Shown here piece by piece: positions 1,263 to 60,288 of a stretch of 64,000 nucleotides of DNA (position 1 is the first letter of the stretch; every line of letters begins with the position of its first letter). Origin of the DNA: Neomelitea salexigens DSM 19753 (GTDB lineage Bacteria > Pseudomonadota > Gammaproteobacteria > Pseudomonadales > Spongiibacteraceae); NCBI RefSeq assembly GCF_000422345.1, contig NZ_AULP01000001.1, forward strand, positions 62,001 through 126,000. Reading direction: 5' to 3'. The position numbers were made by a program, and so were the translations under genes. A model generated the notes under the pieces. The model saw only the letters and a program-made list of their open reading frames with translations, ran no database searches and had not been told where the DNA came from.

Positions 1263-2240
<978 letters not shown>

Positions 2241-2262
2241 TTATTGTCTCCAAATACAACGG

Positions 2263-3174
2263 CTAAGCCTGTGGGGCGTTAGCAATACCGTGCGGGACAT
2301 GCCCGGCTGGCACATGTTCACTGGCTGATTCACAGTGACTTTGCTGATCGTCGAAAAATACATCCGCACCATAGGCTTTCAAGAACTCGCCCTTTTCAAG
2401 GCCACCCAAAAATAGTGACTCATCGATCCGGATATTCCACTCGCGCAGTGTACGTATCACGCGCTTGTGCGCCGGTGCCGACCGGGCGGTCACCAAGGCA
2501 GTTCGAATTGGCGGCGCGTCCGATGGGAATTCTCGCTGTAAGGTATTTAGTGCTGACAGGAAGGGTTTAAAGGGGCCGCCACTCAGCGGGCGGTCCGCCG
2601 CCTCCACTTCACTGGCTGTAAAGGCCTCCAGCCCCTGCTGTTTGTATATCTGTTCTGCCTCATCGGAAAACAGCACTGCATCACCGTCGAAAGCAAAACG
2701 CAGTTCGCGCTGCGTTGACTGCTCAGACTTTTTACTGCGTGGTAACAAGGTCGCTGCAGCAACGCCGTTTTCAAGTGCTCGACGCACGTCTTCGGCATGG
2801 GTGGATAAAAACAGGTGGCAGCCAAACGCCGACACGTAATTGTAGGGACTCGCCCCACCACTAAAGGCGGCACGGCGTATGTTCAAACCGTAGTGCTCGA
2901 TAGAGTTAAATATCCGCAGGCCGGTATCCGCGGAATTGCGAGACAATAAAATAACCTCAACGCGCGGTTCTTTCAGCAAGTCGTTAAGTTTGAGTAAGCG
3001 TTCAACAATATTGAAGGCCTCGCCTTTATCGAGCACCTCATCTTCGCGATCGATTTGATATTGTTGATACGCGTCCAGCCCCTGCGTTTCAAACACCTGA
3101 TGACTGTCATCCAAGTTAAACAGCGCCCGTGATGAAATCGCAACGACTAACTTGTCTTCAAATCCCTTGGGCAT
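2263..3174 (-). CDS. Cytosolic 5'-nucleotidase family protein
   Basis: A 303-residue soluble protein of the bacterial 5'-nucleotidase family (PF06189 type), expected to dephosphorylate nucleoside monophosphates. Seen are LVVAISSRALFNLDD at the N-terminus (HAD-like motif I region, with the Asp just after the Ser-rich strand), VILLSRNSADTGLRIFNSI, FSGGASPYNYVSAFGCHLFLS, FDGDAVLFSDEAEQIY and a final GAEVFFDD-like segment, here GADVFFDDQQ. These strings recur across the family. Length is normal. There is no signal peptide, so it is cytoplasmic. The substrate cannot be told from sequence. Confidence 0.85.
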   Translation of the reverse strand: MPKGFEDKLVVAISSRALFNLDDSHQVFETQGLDAYQQYQIDREDEVLDKGEAFNIVERLLKLNDLLKEPRVEVILLSRNSADTGLRIFNSIEHYGLNIRRAAFSGGASPYNYVSAFGCHLFLSTHAEDVRRALENGVAAATLLPRSKKSEQSTQRELRFAFDGDAVLFSDEAEQIYKQQGLEAFTASEVEAADRPLSGGPFKPFLSALNTLQREFPSDAPPIRTALVTARSAPAHKRVIRTLREWNIRIDESLFLGGLEKGEFLKAYGADVFFDDQQSHCESASEHVPAGHVPHGIANAPQA

Positions 3175-3238
3175 GAATGTCCCTCAATACGTAGCGCCTC
3201 CACTATACAAGATGGCGAAGTGCAGACAAGAGCCGAAG

Positions 3239-4615
3239 CTAGAATTGCAAACGCTGCCAGTTCATCGAGCGCGGCTTGCTGCCCTGACGAATCAAGGCGA
3301 TATCGTCGATTAACGCCTGGGAAAATACAGCCGCTATCGATGTGGCGGCGATGCCCTCGCTACTGACATTCGCCGACAATACCCCAACCGCTTTCATTCC
3401 CTCGCGCAGCATGGCGCCACTTTGGCCCGGCTGATTCAAGCAGTCGAGCCCGACAAGAGCAAGGTCACCACCAACCTCACTGCGCGGACTCGTCTGACAG
3501 CGACTCAACCACAAACCGCCAGAGGACGACGCGCTTGGGTAGGAAACCATCTCTACGGTGGCATCATTTGCAGACAGCGCTGCCAATGGCGCGCCGATAA
3601 AGTGCCCGGTAATCGGCAAGGCAAGCTGTACGAGTGCTACGTCACTACCTGCATAGGCAGCGAGGTCGCCAGCAAGCAATTGTGCATGCTTGTGATCCAA
3701 GGTCCACGCCGCCACCGCCGGGATTCCCGGGTTTTGCGCGCCACCGCGCGCCGGGTAGAACGCCACCGAATGCGCTCTGCGTGCAGGCGAGCGCGGTTCA
3801 AACAAGCAGTGCGCTGCCGTTATCAGCCAGCGCCGTGTTAGTGCCGTGGCAGTACACCAGGCGTCCCCCTTGCGGTACTGGCTGTATAAGCGCCCCACTT
3901 GCCATTGCTGGACGCCAGCCTGTGGCCAAACACGGACTCTTCTGGCCTGCGCGTTAATAAAAAACACCGCACCACTGCTCTGCTCGCGTTGCGGCGTTGC
4001 GGCGCTAAACACCAGTTCAGGTCTGCCCTGCTCCCCCGCTAGCAGGTAATAGCCCGGATGCACAGGCAACGCGAGGCCGCGGCGACCGTCAATGGACACC
4101 CTTGGCAGAAACTCAGCAAGTCGATTGCTTAGCGCCAGGGCTTTATCCCGATAAATCATCGGCTGTCGATGGAATTCCCGGCGCAGGCGGCGCACCGCAG
4201 CCGACACGCTGAAATCTTGCGACGCCCCTAACAAAACATGGGCGACTCTTAAGAGGCGCAGTTGATCGCGGGCCGCCACCGAGGTCGCCAGCGCAGCATA
4301 ATTCGCAGACTTAGCAACGGCCTGTTGCGTTGCGGGCCCACTGAAAAAAGTCGCCCATGCAAAATCTGCCGCCAGAGTCGGGCAGCGCTCGATAAGGCGA
4401 CGTTGTGCCTGCATCGCCTGCCAAGCCGACACACTGATATAAAGCGCATCGTCGGCGTCTGCAGGTGAATAGCGCGGCGGGCATTGATTGTCGGACCACG
4501 CCGGAGAAACACCGAACAGAAACACTGTCAGGGTAAACCAGAGGGCGGTAGAATTACGCGGGACGCGACAGCGATAATCTCTCAACAGGCTTCGGAGCGG
4601 CAACATATCTTGCAT
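3239..4615 (-). CDS. Secreted trypsin-like serine protease
   Basis: A protein of about 458 residues from the chosen ATG. It starts with a basic stretch and a hydrophobic segment ending FGVSPAWS, a credible signal peptide, so export is expected. Residues from about 50 to 230 are a domain I do not recognise. The last 220 residues are a chymotrypsin-fold protease: His269 in LITAAHC, Asp325 in GSDVALVQL and Ser399 in PGQSGAM, with paired cysteines. Reading can be extended upstream to a GTG 14 codons earlier, but that adds a non-signal-like stretch. A second ATG lies three codons inside. The 5' end overlaps the start of the divergent alr gene. Confidence 0.8.
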   Translation of the reverse strand: MQDMLPLRSLLRDYRCRVPRNSTALWFTLTVFLFGVSPAWSDNQCPPRYSPADADDALYISVSAWQAMQAQRRLIERCPTLAADFAWATFFSGPATQQAVAKSANYAALATSVAARDQLRLLRVAHVLLGASQDFSVSAAVRRLRREFHRQPMIYRDKALALSNRLAEFLPRVSIDGRRGLALPVHPGYYLLAGEQGRPELVFSAATPQREQSSGAVFFINAQARRVRVWPQAGVQQWQVGRLYSQYRKGDAWCTATALTRRWLITAAHCLFEPRSPARRAHSVAFYPARGGAQNPGIPAVAAWTLDHKHAQLLAGDLAAYAGSDVALVQLALPITGHFIGAPLAALSANDATVEMVSYPSASSSGGLWLSRCQTSPRSEVGGDLALVGLDCLNQPGQSGAMLREGMKAVGVLSANVSSEGIAATSIAAVFSQALIDDIALIRQGSKPRSMNWQRLQF

Positions 4616-56569: not shown

Positions 56570-58939
56570 TCAGCGCTTTTTTTGACGCCGGATGTGCAAC
56601 GCCAGCAGCAATAGCAGTAAGCCTGCCGCGCTGCTAAGCGGGTAGCGAATAGAAAGCACCATTGGGTACAGGCCAGCTCGAACCACTGATTTTGCCCATT
56701 CTCGCCCGGCAATGGCGTTGGCGAGTTTTGGCGAGTGCTGGTAGTAAAAAGCGACAAATTGTCTGCCAAGGCCGAACTGCAACAGCACGCGGTCTCTGAA
56801 GTCCCGCAACAGCTCAACATCTTCGGCAATAAAGCTACCGTAGGCGGCCGTGGCGATAAAACACCCGCCACCACCGCCGCCTCCGCCGGAGCTGCCTCCG
56901 ACACTACCTCCGCTGCCGCCACCGGTATTGCCGCCGTCATTATCTTGCGGCGGAGTGTCGTCGGTATTGTCATCTTCGCCAACACGCTGCGCTAATAAGT
57001 CGGCCGCTGCGCTGGCGTTTAATAAGCCGGGGCCGGTTACATCGTCGTTGCCCGATACGGCGCGAAATCCGGTGACATCAATGGCACTATCGCGCGCGGC
57101 ACTGATTAACTGCGCGGGCGTTGCGGCCGGAAACGCTTCCAACATCAGCGCAAAAACCGCAGCGACATTGGGGGCAGCGGCCGAGGTGCCAAAGAAATTG
57201 GGGAAACCATCGGGCTCGCCGTCTTCGGGGGCTGCACTACTGGAGGGTGAACCCAGGAAGGTTGTGTTATTGCCATCCACCCCGGCGAAGGCAGGCGGGT
57301 TGCGGCTGCTGGGCTGGTAGTTACCCTGGGAATCGAATTGTATGGTTTGGCTGCCACCGCGAGAGGTGAACGGCTCGGGATCAATATCCGGGGTGGTGTA
57401 ACGGCTGGGTGCAAATTCCGGCGACTCCCACCACGGCACAGCCGCCACGGCGGCAATGCCCGCTGTAAGCGCGTGCCCCCACGTACTGGGGCCGTTGTAG
57501 TCGTACTCAACAGAGTCAGGCGATGTACCGGTAAATAGCAGCCGGAATTCCAAGGGCACGCCACTCTGTTGCGGGATATCTCCCTGGCTGCCGGCATAAT
57601 GCTCAACGGCCAGGTAAAATGTCTGGGCAGTACTGCCGGTTTCAAGCAATAAAAACTCGACGGCGTCGCCACGCGGGTTATTGGTGGTGCCCTGTGTATT
57701 GGCGCCGCGCGCATAAAAACTGGCATGAGTGGTGGTGAGAGCACTGATATCCGCGCGGGTTGTCGCGTAAAGATCTAAGTCGACTTGCGCGCCGTTGGTT
57801 GGGTTTACACTGGCACTGGGTTGATTCCAGTTAAGCAATACAAACGTTGAGGCCCGGGGTGGCAAGGTCACCGCCATAAAGCGGTCAGTGCCACTCTGCG
57901 ACCAGCTGTGAAGGTCGCTGCCGGTCGGTGCGTTGCGATTACCGCCCTCTTCATCGACCAAACGGTTGCTGTCGCGATAAACAAAGCGATGCCCTTGGTC
58001 GCCGTCGTTACCGACCGCACTTACATAGGGAACCCCATTGGCGACGCAATTACTGGCCGCAATTGCGGGTAAATCGTCCTGGTAGCTGGACTCGGTTAAA
58101 AATAGAACATCGTCGACAACGATGCTGGCGCCACCATTACAAAGGTTGCTGATCGCATCGGCGAACTCGCTGCGGTTGCCTCCGGCGGTGTGAAAGAGAA
58201 TGTCGGCACCGGGGGCGATGTCGTACACCAACTCCGCCATAGCGGCGCCTTCATCCGTACCGTCGAAATTACCCCCTTCGTCTCGGCTGCCATCGGCGAG
58301 GATGCGCACGGTTTGCGGTAAATCGCCACTGTCTTGCGGCCGACTCCCCATTAGTGTGCCGGCCTGACCCACTGCTGGCGTGGTATTGGCGTCGCGGACA
58401 TTGCTGGTGTGCGAGAAACTGTCTGAGATAATACCAATCGCTTGACCGCTGCCATCAACGGTATAGCTTGCCGCCAGTTGCTCGCTACGCAGCGCAACGC
58501 CTGCCCGGCTTCGGGCTTCGCCACGGCGAAGAATGGCCGGCGGGGCAAAACTTGCTTCACTCAGCCACGGCTGCTGACTAAGCTGATCGAGTACATCCAG
58601 GTTGGAAACACTGATGCGCGCCCAGCGCCTATCGTCGCTCAGATAGCGCAGATCAACGCCCGCCAGGCTGTTTATTTCGCGGCGCAAAGCCTCGTCCGTG
58701 ACATTCTCCGGGTTGATACGCAACGTGATGAACAAGCGCGTTTGCTCCATGCTGCTGCGCATCAAGCGCGTTAGCCCGGTGCTGTCGCGTTGGCCGACGC
58801 CTGCGCGAATATCCCGCAAATGGCTGCCCAATCGCTCGCTAACCGCGGTGTCTGCCCCCTGACTTAATGTTGCTGAGCTCACGCCCAGGCATAGTATTCC
58901 CGCGATCGCACATCCGATTTTTGCTGGGGATAAGGTCAT
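56570..58939 (-). CDS. S8-family serine peptidase with an atypical His site and CFI-box C-terminus
   Basis: A 789-residue secreted subtilase with a signal peptide (AIAGILCLGVSSATLS). Residues about 65-140 look like a propeptide with an inhibitor-I9-like fold. Asp173 is in IGIISDSFS, the oxyanion Asn311 in SAVGNDGDQ, and Ser586 in FGTSAAAPNVAAV. The position of the catalytic HGT reads Asp229-Glu230-Gly231 (GTDEGAAMAELVYDIAPGA), so no His is present there; a Glu-based mechanism, as in sedolisins, or inactivity are both possible. A Gly/Ser/Asp linker (655-692) leads to C693-FIATAAYGS, the CFI-box C-terminal motif, then a helix and a basic tail. The adjacent upstream lipoprotein gene is probably co-transcribed. 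Confidence 0.87.
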   Translation of the reverse strand: MTLSPAKIGCAIAGILCLGVSSATLSQGADTAVSERLGSHLRDIRAGVGQRDSTGLTRLMRSSMEQTRLFITLRINPENVTDEALRREINSLAGVDLRYLSDDRRWARISVSNLDVLDQLSQQPWLSEASFAPPAILRRGEARSRAGVALRSEQLAASYTVDGSGQAIGIISDSFSHTSNVRDANTTPAVGQAGTLMGSRPQDSGDLPQTVRILADGSRDEGGNFDGTDEGAAMAELVYDIAPGADILFHTAGGNRSEFADAISNLCNGGASIVVDDVLFLTESSYQDDLPAIAASNCVANGVPYVSAVGNDGDQGHRFVYRDSNRLVDEEGGNRNAPTGSDLHSWSQSGTDRFMAVTLPPRASTFVLLNWNQPSASVNPTNGAQVDLDLYATTRADISALTTTHASFYARGANTQGTTNNPRGDAVEFLLLETGSTAQTFYLAVEHYAGSQGDIPQQSGVPLEFRLLFTGTSPDSVEYDYNGPSTWGHALTAGIAAVAAVPWWESPEFAPSRYTTPDIDPEPFTSRGGSQTIQFDSQGNYQPSSRNPPAFAGVDGNNTTFLGSPSSSAAPEDGEPDGFPNFFGTSAAAPNVAAVFALMLEAFPAATPAQLISAARDSAIDVTGFRAVSGNDDVTGPGLLNASAAADLLAQRVGEDDNTDDTPPQDNDGGNTGGGSGGSVGGSSGGGGGGGGCFIATAAYGSFIAEDVELLRDFRDRVLLQFGLGRQFVAFYYQHSPKLANAIAGREWAKSVVRAGLYPMVLSIRYPLSSAAGLLLLLLALHIRRQKKR

Positions 58940-58948
58940 ATTAGGGTC

Positions 58949-59353
58949 TCATTTAGAAATTGGGGATTGCGTTGGCGCGAGAGATACCGCCGTTATTGCA
59001 TCGATTTGTTGCAGTTGGTGTAGCTTATCTTCACTGTTTAAGCGCAGCGTAATCTGCAGAAATGTCGCATTTGTCTTCTCCACAGCGTAGTCGTAGAGTT
59101 TTAAGCGCTCAAGTACAGAAGCCAGACTTCCCGCCCGGTAATGAAGCAGAAAGCGCTGCTCTGTGTTAAACAAAACCTCCTCGCTACCCCGTTCTATATA
59201 TTCTCGTAATCGCGGCCCGTAAAAGGTTTCCGCTCGCCATTGTACGTCGCCAGCATGGAACTGATGCTCTGGTCTTTCGGAACACGCTAATAACAACGCG
59301 CTGGGTAGCGTTATAGCGCAAAGCAAGCAATGTATTACGCGCAGCTTCCCCAA
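58949..59353 (-). CDS. Small lipoprotein resembling a free-standing protease propeptide
   Basis: About 134 residues from a TTG start behind GGAGAGG; an upstream GTG would add 27 residues that break the signal peptide. The start is MGKLRVIHCLLCAITLPSAL followed by LLAC, a lipobox with Cys24. The last 60 residues (LLHYRAGSLASVLERLKLYD, then ATFLQITLRLNSEDKLHQL and QQIDAITAVSLAP) have the strand-helix-strand order of subtilase propeptides/I9 inhibitors, as does the N-terminal part of the protease next door. It lies 10 bases upstream of that gene, so the pair is an operon. A chaperone or inhibitor role is inference. Confidence 0.65.
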   Translation of the reverse strand: MGKLRVIHCLLCAITLPSALLLACSERPEHQFHAGDVQWRAETFYGPRLREYIERGSEEVLFNTEQRFLLHYRAGSLASVLERLKLYDYAVEKTNATFLQITLRLNSEDKLHQLQQIDAITAVSLAPTQSPISK

Positions 59354-59703
59354 GATCGCCCTCTCCACCGGGTATGACACAAACTGAGCAAAAAGGATAA
59401 AACGAAGGCTGGCGAGGGGCAGTAAGGGATTCACGCAGTGTTCAGCGCTCCGGCGCTATGTCTGCACGGGCTGGCATAAAGGCCAAAGACTACTGCACAC
59501 TTTTCTGCAGATACATGGTTTAACACTAGTTAAGTTAGGGGTTTTCGCGTCATTTCGCAGCAAAATAGCCGCAGCAATACCATTAGAAAAGGAGACACAC
59601 TGCACGTTTTTCTGTAACAATAGGGAAAAATACGTATCTGGATTTGTTCCTACGCCAGACCAGAGACATAATAAAACCGTTAGAGCACAGAGGCGGATAA
59701 ACC
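59354..59703. other. Divergent intergenic region
   Basis: Separates the lipoprotein/protease operon from the recombinase-like gene. It contains a candidate promoter for the latter near its right end. No small gene with a credible start was found. Confidence 0.4.
59644..59672 (+). promoter_or_regulatory. Candidate sigma-70 promoter
   Basis: TTGTTC and CATAAT separated by 17 bases, about 30 bases upstream of the recombinase-like gene start. Sequence resemblance only. Confidence 0.42.
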
Positions 59704-60288
59704 ATGCGATTTTCAGACCTGAATTGCTTTGTGGACCTAAGCTGTTTTAAACAAACATGCTTTTATGACCTACGACTGGAGGAAGTCGCTCTTAAGGATG
59801 TTGCGGAAGCCCTTAACCGCATTGAGCTAATGGACGGTGCAAGCGCTAGGCACGACGCTTTCCACCGTTTACAAATTTCCGCCGAGCAAGCGGAGCAAAA
59901 CGGTTGGATTGCAACCGCTAACAGCTTGCTGCCAGACCCATTAAGCAATGTGTCAGAAACGGGGTATATGATCTCGCGCTTTGAGCGGGGTGAGCGAGCT
60001 GCCATCTTGTTTGCCTTGAGCGAAAACCTGTCGCTACTCGAAGCCATTACCATGAAACGCAGTGACTTGCGTGGCGTCAAGCTAAGCCCCGCGGCCGCGC
60101 AAATTGCCAGCCGCCTGACACCGCATTTACACTGTGACTGGCTGTTCTGGCGTGACAGCGACGGTATTGCGGTGCCGCTGAGCAACCTACCCGGCCGCTG
60201 GCGCCAAAAAATGCCAATGAGTTGGGAACACTTTAGCCAGGCGCACCGGGGTCATTACGACACTACCCGCCATGTCGGCATTGCCTGA
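59704..60288 (+). CDS. Uncharacterised protein with weak tyrosine-recombinase resemblance
   Basis: A 194-residue soluble protein. The middle (RAAILFALSENLSLLEAITMK, then RSDLRGVKLSPAAAQIASRL) follows the pattern of the tyrosine-recombinase catalytic domain (LxLxTGxRxxExxxLxWxDI), and NLPGRWRQ also fits, but the catalytic Arg is not seen in the usual place (ENLSLLE) and the end has HYDTTRH with no clear Tyr context. It would thus be a degenerate or repurposed recombinase if the resemblance is real. GAGG precedes the ATG. It lies between tRNA-Cys and the protease operon, with a strong terminator behind. Confidence 0.6.
   Translation: MRFSDLNCFVDLSCFKQTCFYDLRLEEVALKDVAEALNRIELMDGASARHDAFHRLQISAEQAEQNGWIATANSLLPDPLSNVSETGYMISRFERGERAAILFALSENLSLLEAITMKRSDLRGVKLSPAAAQIASRLTPHLHCDWLFWRDSDGIAVPLSNLPGRWRQKMPMSWEHFSQAHRGHYDTTRHVGIA

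Follow-up and report, generated by a model that had tools for sequence, protein, structure and literature searches.

A putative lipid-anchored copy of a protease propeptide encoded beside a subtilisin-fold protease in Neomelitea salexigens

Introduction

The propeptides of subtilases both assist the folding of their enzymes and inhibit them. The lipase-specific foldases (Lif), which have an unrelated fold and enzyme, are membrane-anchored steric chaperones encoded together with that enzyme. Trans-acting propeptides are known in a few systems. In the available parts of the reports, three proteins are described that resemble the one studied here. SUB1-ProM of Plasmodium is a stand-alone propeptide-like protein, and is a potent and selective subtilase inhibitor (PMC6993865). 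ORF2 of Aeromonas sobria is the chaperone and temporary inhibitor of the protease ASP, and its C-terminal Lys reaches the catalytic centre (PMC5638518). PrcB of the Treponema denticola dentilisin is a lipoprotein encoded first in its operon; it is required for PrtP, and is proposed to help anchor the dentilisin complex (PMC8167434).

The window analysed here is a stretch of 64,000 nucleotides from N. salexigens DSM 19753 (contig NZ_AULP01000001.1, positions 62,001 to 126,000). It encodes a small lipoprotein directly ahead of a subtilisin-fold protease. The locus differs from these systems in having a lipid-anchored, putative trans partner, which is a recognizable paralogue of the propeptide still carried by the enzyme. 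No description of such a lipid-anchored paralogue of a retained propeptide was found among the matches listed in the open-access literature. These lipoproteins also appear to have originated repeatedly beside one protease family.

Results

Organization of the locus

The features of the locus are collected in Table 1. A first-pass annotation, made from the sequence alone, had placed a lipoprotein ORF before the protease gene; its coordinates were confirmed, and the ORF lies on the minus strand and carries a lipobox. The lipoproteins were scored with the PROSITE lipobox pattern PS51257. The pattern was found in 22 of 26 lipoproteins, including that of the window; the other four have no lipobox by this pattern. 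A single copy each of the lipoprotein and the protease was found in the window's genome (G000), where the profile search matched only these two places. Promoter and terminator scans gave chance-level results, and searches of viral contigs and plasmids gave no match. A divergent gene of 194 aa (window 59704-60285, plus strand) has no Pfam match at E <= 0.1, and is kept beside the lipoprotein/protease pair in the loci L002 and L003.

Table 1. Features of the lipoprotein/protease locus (positions in the window).
Feature	Position	Strand	Basis or detail
Lipoprotein gene, 134 aa, putative detached propeptide copy	58949..59353	-	TTG start 59353, TGA stop 58949-58951
GGAGAGG, likely ribosome-binding site, 6 nt 5' of TTG	59360..59366	-	printed sequence
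Signal peptide and lipobox to Cys24 (SALLLAC, Ser at +2)	59282..59353	-	pattern PS51257
Propeptide-like domain, residues 64-130, beta-alpha-beta-beta-alpha-beta, predicted; short tail to K134	58964..59164	-	predicted structure, homology
Gap from lipoprotein stop (TGA) to protease ATG, 9 nt	58940..58948	-	sequence
Subtilisin-fold serine protease, 789 aa, own propeptide retained	56570..58939	-	ORF, Pfam, predicted structure
Protease's own propeptide, residues 66-138	58526..58744	-	model; 3whi_B aligned over model 67-647
Catalytic domain, residues 140-650	56990..58522	-	model and alignment
CFI-box-CTERM domain, residues 693-761, then C-terminal hydrophobic stretch	56657..56863	-	NF041770, E 3.4e-26

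The neighbouring protease

The protease consists of an N-terminal hydrophobic stretch, the propeptide, a subtilisin-fold catalytic domain, and the CFI-box-CTERM domain. The term "CFI-box" was not found in the open-access literature searched. The nearest named relative among the matches listed is Spongiibacter marinus (L046), whose protease is 95% identical. All 21 members of the alignment A1 have a Pfam S8 match, and the window's protease matches only around the active Ser. The first-pass label "S8 gene" holds for the subtilisin fold (VIA Z up to 32.5) and for the GTSxAxP serine motif; it fails at the position of the catalytic His, which is occupied by an invariant Glu230. The HGTHxxG motif with the catalytic His is absent, and an Asp-Glu-Gly triplet (D229-E230-G231), invariant in 41 aligned protease rows, stands in its place. 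The G291 protease, which belongs to the family (E 3.6e-31), has Ala instead of D229. Among the relatives searched, HG[TS]H is present in 23 of 24 I9-bearing S8 proteins, and the remaining one is a fragment of 95 residues.

The candidate catalytic residues D173, E230 and S586 and the candidate oxyanion residue N311 are invariant in the 41 rows. A His residue, His489, is also invariant and lies away from the E230 site. In the predicted model, E230 begins a helix at the place of the subtilisin His; the equivalence of the two residues is one of position in the fold, and the S8 profile alignment is gapped there. Judged by this model, the protease is possibly a Ser-Glu-Asp type enzyme, which presumably resembles the "S53-like" group of CDD. 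Classical S53 peptidases have a catalytic Glu with an Asp four residues on. Membership of S53 itself was rejected, since the residue four positions after E230 is M234, so that the S53 Glu-(3)-Asp spacing is missing.

Homology between the lipoprotein domain and the protease propeptide

Profile-profile comparison (hhalign) of the lipoproteins (18 sequences) and the pro-regions of the window's family (20 sequences) gave P 4.4e-9 over 70 columns. The controls were clean: six windows of the catalytic domain gave P >= 0.27, the reversed profile gave 0.11, and the smallest of 30 column shuffles gave 0.13. HMM searches agreed in both directions. Among the 12 intact lipoproteins of the loci listed, a propeptide-only HMM matched four at iE < 0.001 (best 5.9e-6) and six at iE < 0.02. 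The lipoprotein HMM in turn matched protease pro-regions, with the best value of 8e-9 in L066. The profile A4, which was built from proteases only and includes no lipoprotein, matched the lipoproteins of G742 (iE 7.2e-11), G352 (6.5e-7) and G291 (4e-6) when 16 ORFs were searched. On account of the profile-profile P value, the clean controls and the agreeing HMM searches, the C-terminal domain of the lipoprotein and the protease propeptide are regarded as paralogues. Searches of Pfam, NCBIfam and PDB sequences with the single lipoprotein or the alignment A2 gave only chance-level matches.

The profile alignment pairs lipoprotein residue 129 with protease residue 135. We infer from this alignment, when it is lengthened by several residues, that the lipoprotein, with 134 residues, ends near the end of a processed propeptide. 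The last strand is followed by seven or more residues in 19 of the 20 lipoproteins aligned, which takes the chain to about the end of the protease pro-region; L020 has only two such residues. In L033, L061, G291 and L077, the chain stops right at the seventh residue, the position at which an Arg precedes the mature start in the pro-regions of the window's family. A C-terminal Lys or Arg, as in ORF2, is present in the window's and several other lipoproteins, but is not universal.

When ranked by raw pairwise score, the lipoprotein comes nearer to the propeptide of its own protease than to that of any other lineage in six of 18 pairs (strongly in L065, G291, L106 and L077), and in none of the ten pairs of the window's family. 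The duplication within the window's family is therefore probably old, as far as these scores indicate. Outside the window's family, the identity between lipoprotein and propeptide is higher for cognate than for non-cognate pairs, both in the last block (0.38 vs 0.27) and in strands 2-3 (0.37 vs 0.17). Since likeness is not markedly greater in the C-terminal tail than elsewhere, the tail was not used as proof of binding at the active site.

Predicted structures and the I9 fold

The AlphaFold2 model of the lipoprotein has a mean pLDDT of 77.9, with 81-94 per ten-residue block in residues 41-130. The model was built on the alignment A3, a mixture of 12 lipoproteins and 22 protease pro-regions; because A3 presupposes homology, the model supports rather than proves the fold. 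Its elements are E67-72, H77-86, E90-95, E100-104, H108-114 and E120-125. In the VIA-align comparison, 18 of the best 20 rows were subtilase propeptide chains or regions, as judged by title and range. The best match was 3cnq_P (Z 7.4, 2.5 A, 68 residues), and the free-standing inhibitor POIA1 gave Z 5.7. The other two of the best 20 rows were NapD (Z 6.8) and a mitoribosome chain (Z 6.2). All of the Z values are below 8, the fold is a common one, and the unrelated NapD scores nearly as high. Foldseek found no match to the PDB at E <= 0.001; its best rows were 8c4z_A (E 1.3e-3), a chain of 112 residues from the entry of a protease, together with two prosegments of subtilisin, 3cnq_P and 1spb_P.

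The first-pass annotation had also noted, at the end of the lipoprotein, a domain with the strand-helix-strand order of an I9 propeptide/inhibitor. The fold part of this claim is supported, as an I9-type E-H-E-E-H-E order (strand-helix-strand-strand-helix-strand) is predicted. Membership of the I9 sequence family is not. Pfam I9 (PF05922) gave no match to the window's lipoprotein at E <= 10, and none to any of the 18 lipoproteins at E <= 1. A PF05922 search of 57 genomes, including that of the window, found 25 other I9 domains, and the lipoprotein was not among them. The lipoprotein profile reached only P 0.014 against 24 I9 domains. The lipoprotein domain is I9-like by fold, and is no I9 member by sequence.

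The protease model (residues 1-650, alignment of 41 rows) has a pLDDT of 85.7 and a pTM of 0.87. It retains a propeptide-like region, as had been noticed at first pass, with the predicted elements E69-75, H82-91, E95-100, E106-111, H116-121 and E126-131. The model aligned with unprocessed pro-subtilisin E (3whi_B) with Z 29.8 and 3.7 A over 318 residues. Since this alignment spans model residues 67-647, the protease's own propeptide is predicted to sit on the catalytic domain about as in unprocessed pro-subtilisin. In many VIA rows, residue 143 of the model is paired with subtilisin residue 4, which places the mature N-terminus near residue 140.

Distribution of the gene pair

In the window's family, the protease was found in 20 genomes among 145 relatives, each time as a match of at least about 600 residues; in one further genome, which is 70% complete, it was not found. 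The lipoprotein gene lies directly 5' of the protease gene in 19 of the 20 loci. It is intact in 18 of them, and has an in-frame stop in the other. With the first possible start codon taken as the beginning of each ORF, 14 of the 18 intact pairs overlap by 4-20 nt, and the other four are separated by 4-29 nt. The broken gene is that of S. marinus DSM 17750 (L002, L017 and L046 are one assembly), in which a TAA interrupts the lipoprotein reading frame and the protease is intact. In S. pelagi (L035 and L051 are one assembly), the protease is present and an adjacent lipoprotein gene was not seen; the S. pelagi protease alone among the 20 lacks a CFI-box. The stop in S. marinus and the absence in S. 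pelagi suggest that the lipoprotein is not always needed.

A genome scan listed 80 related protease loci, 13 of which have an adjacent short ORF that matches a combined model. Eight of the 13 belong to the window's family (one of them broken), mostly from genomes already counted in the family survey. The five remaining pairs listed are outside the family: L061 (an Oceanospirillaceae MAG), L062 (an Oleispira MAG), L065 (an Ectothiorhodospiraceae MAG), L077 (an Actinomycetes MAG), and L106 (a MAG labelled just "bacterium"). The combined model itself included L061, L062, L065 and L106. A model built from the window's family only matched L062 (1.8e-6), L065 (1e-5) and L106 (0.01); it did not match L061, whose lipoprotein was found by inspecting the upstream sequence. 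The lipoprotein gene is downstream of the protease in L077 and L106, and upstream in the other pairs. The C-terminal parts of the L106 and L077 proteases match calcium-binding RTX-type repeats. No such lipoprotein was found at the remaining 67 of the 80 loci listed, some of which have short flanks.

When 369 genomes of the class were searched with the profile, 11 gave a match. In six of them (G000, G298, G320, G352, G408 and G291), the match is a separate small ORF; in the other five, it lies in a longer ORF only. The lipoprotein and protease sequences of G408 are the same as those of L065, and therefore add no new pair. In G352 (L175), the lipoprotein is intact and the protease frame is split into the overlapping ORFs 2057-3559 and 3550-4122. 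In a sample of the phylum, four of 398 genomes matched: G000, G742 (a pair), G663 (a lipoprotein at a contig end), and G552, whose match looks like chance. Every lipoprotein found with a visible neighbour adjoins such a protease. Some weak early matches (L005-L010 and L012-L015) proved to be no relatives by the later profiles, and L168 in G352 (E 3e-4) did not match them either; L011, also a weak early match, was confirmed by them as a real pair member.

Selection and origins of the lipoproteins

The lipoprotein gene is under purifying selection. In four pairs of relatives, its dN/dS was 0.09, 0.10, 0.09 and 0.07, of which the fourth value is near saturation; the protease gave 0.09, 0.08 and 0.06 in the first three of these pairs, and was not measurable in the fourth. 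In the comparison of the window with S. marinus, the dN/dS was 0.23 for the lipoprotein vs 0.07 for the protease.

A phylogenetic tree was reconstructed from 20 lipoproteins and their 20 pro-regions (111 columns, with some long branches). The L077 and L106 lipoproteins group with pro-regions at 100/99, and the G291 lipoprotein pairs with its own pro-region at 100/98. The well-supported branches force at least three changes of label between lipoprotein and pro-region, and the best tree needs six. A single origin of all the lipoproteins was rejected with the 20 pairs (p-AU 3.75e-19), an exact value not to be leant on because it comes from a two-tree test on about 110 columns. With 18 pairs it was likewise rejected (p-AU 0.0025); the rejection was weaker when the L077 and L106 pairs were left out (p 0.033). 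A single origin was not rejected (p 0.22) for the 15 lipoproteins that remain without L077, L106 and G291, namely those of the window's family and other gammaproteobacteria. The rejection of a single origin suggests that the lipoproteins arose by repeated duplication, or by gene conversion inside a genome, which would leave the same trace in the tree. In the Pseudomonadota pairs the lipoprotein gene is upstream, and in two actinobacterial-like contigs (L077 and L106) it is downstream. It might be that surface or secreted Glu-type subtilases have, on several independent occasions, passed a second copy of the propeptide to an adjacent membrane lipoprotein, as a recurrent tethered safety catch acting in trans, with the cis propeptide kept; we hold the chances for and against this broader proposal to be even.

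Discussion

The lipoprotein is probably a lipid-anchored, separately encoded copy of the pro-region, which would bind the neighbouring protease in trans, both to aid its folding as a steric chaperone and to inhibit it reversibly. In the available parts of the reports, separately encoded subtilase propeptides act in trans (SUB1-ProM, PMC6993865; ORF2, PMC5638518) and PrcB is needed (PMC8167434), so that docking would be expected by analogy. The lipoprotein would be made just before, or with, the protease, and then be anchored in the membrane. It may dock on the surface of the catalytic domain where the protease's own propeptide is placed, with the C-terminal tail pointing towards the active-site cleft. 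By analogy with SUB1-ProM, ORF2 and PrcB, it could do so in place of the cis propeptide, or after the cis propeptide is lost. As such a chaperone and inhibitor, it might fold the enzyme, or hold it in check, at the cell envelope until release. As the copies apparently emerged on more than one occasion in different bacteria, they may serve cells in folding or restraining the protease at the surface. The lack of such a lipoprotein at 67 of the 80 related protease loci listed, some with short flanks, speaks against this role, as do the defects in S. marinus DSM 17750 and S. pelagi, the higher dN/dS of the window/S. marinus pair, and the raw pairwise scores.

Other explanations have to be weighed. 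The lipoprotein might be only a steric foldase, needed because the protease's own propeptide is insufficient. This is conceivable but doubtful: ASP is described as needing ORF2 (PMC5638518), and the lipoprotein gene comes first with overlapping ORFs, yet the propeptide here is apparently complete, unlike that of ASP, which is propeptide-deficient by a title cited in that report, and an intact lipoprotein is missing beside the proteases of S. pelagi and S. marinus DSM 17750. It is less likely still that the lipoprotein is mainly a tether, which would keep the processed protease, or its complex with the propeptide, at the membrane without regulating its activity. The lipid anchor indicated by the lipobox would fit such a tether, as would PrcB, the proposed anchor that is encoded first in its operon and required for PrtP (PMC8167434, available part). 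However, in the window's family all but one of the 20 proteases have a CFI-box and C-terminal hydrophobic stretch of their own, a possible anchor. The same defects in S. marinus DSM 17750 and S. pelagi, together with the dN/dS of 0.23 in the window/S. marinus pair, could also indicate duplicated propeptide fragments that persist by chance without a function. This explanation is highly improbable in view of the dN/dS of 0.07-0.10 in the four other pairs, the 18 intact genes in 20 loci, the lipobox retained in most of the lipoproteins, and their repeated origin.

If the lipoprotein inhibits or folds the enzyme, the locus would show cell-envelope control of a secreted protease. It also offers many natural cognate pairs for the study of propeptide-protease recognition and specificity.

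Comparison with known systems

The predicted fold of the lipoprotein domain is like that of the I9 inhibitor POIA1 (PDB 1v5i_B; 3.1 A over 68 residues at the Z of 5.7). Unlike POIA1, the window's lipoprotein has no Pfam I9 match, is lipid-anchored by motif, and is genomically paired with a protease. PrcB is likewise a lipoprotein encoded ahead of a subtilase (PMC8167434); the available part of that report gives no propeptide relationship and states no homologues beyond oral Treponema. SUB1-ProM is also encoded by a separate gene beside a subtilase with its own propeptide, and combines little sequence similarity with a conserved fold (PMC6993865). It differs in being eukaryotic and located in the parasitophorous vacuole, and the available text mentions no lipid anchor; inhibition was measured for SUB1-ProM, whereas the lipoprotein here would be an inhibitor by analogy.

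The ASP-ORF2 system shares the bacterial two-gene arrangement, with the partner encoded beside the protease (PMC5638518). In the available part of that report, the ORF2 gene is downstream and the ASP triad includes His, whereas in the window the lipoprotein gene is upstream and Glu is found instead. ASP is called propeptide-deficient in a title cited there; the window's protease, in contrast, keeps its propeptide, and its partner appears to be a paralogue of that propeptide.
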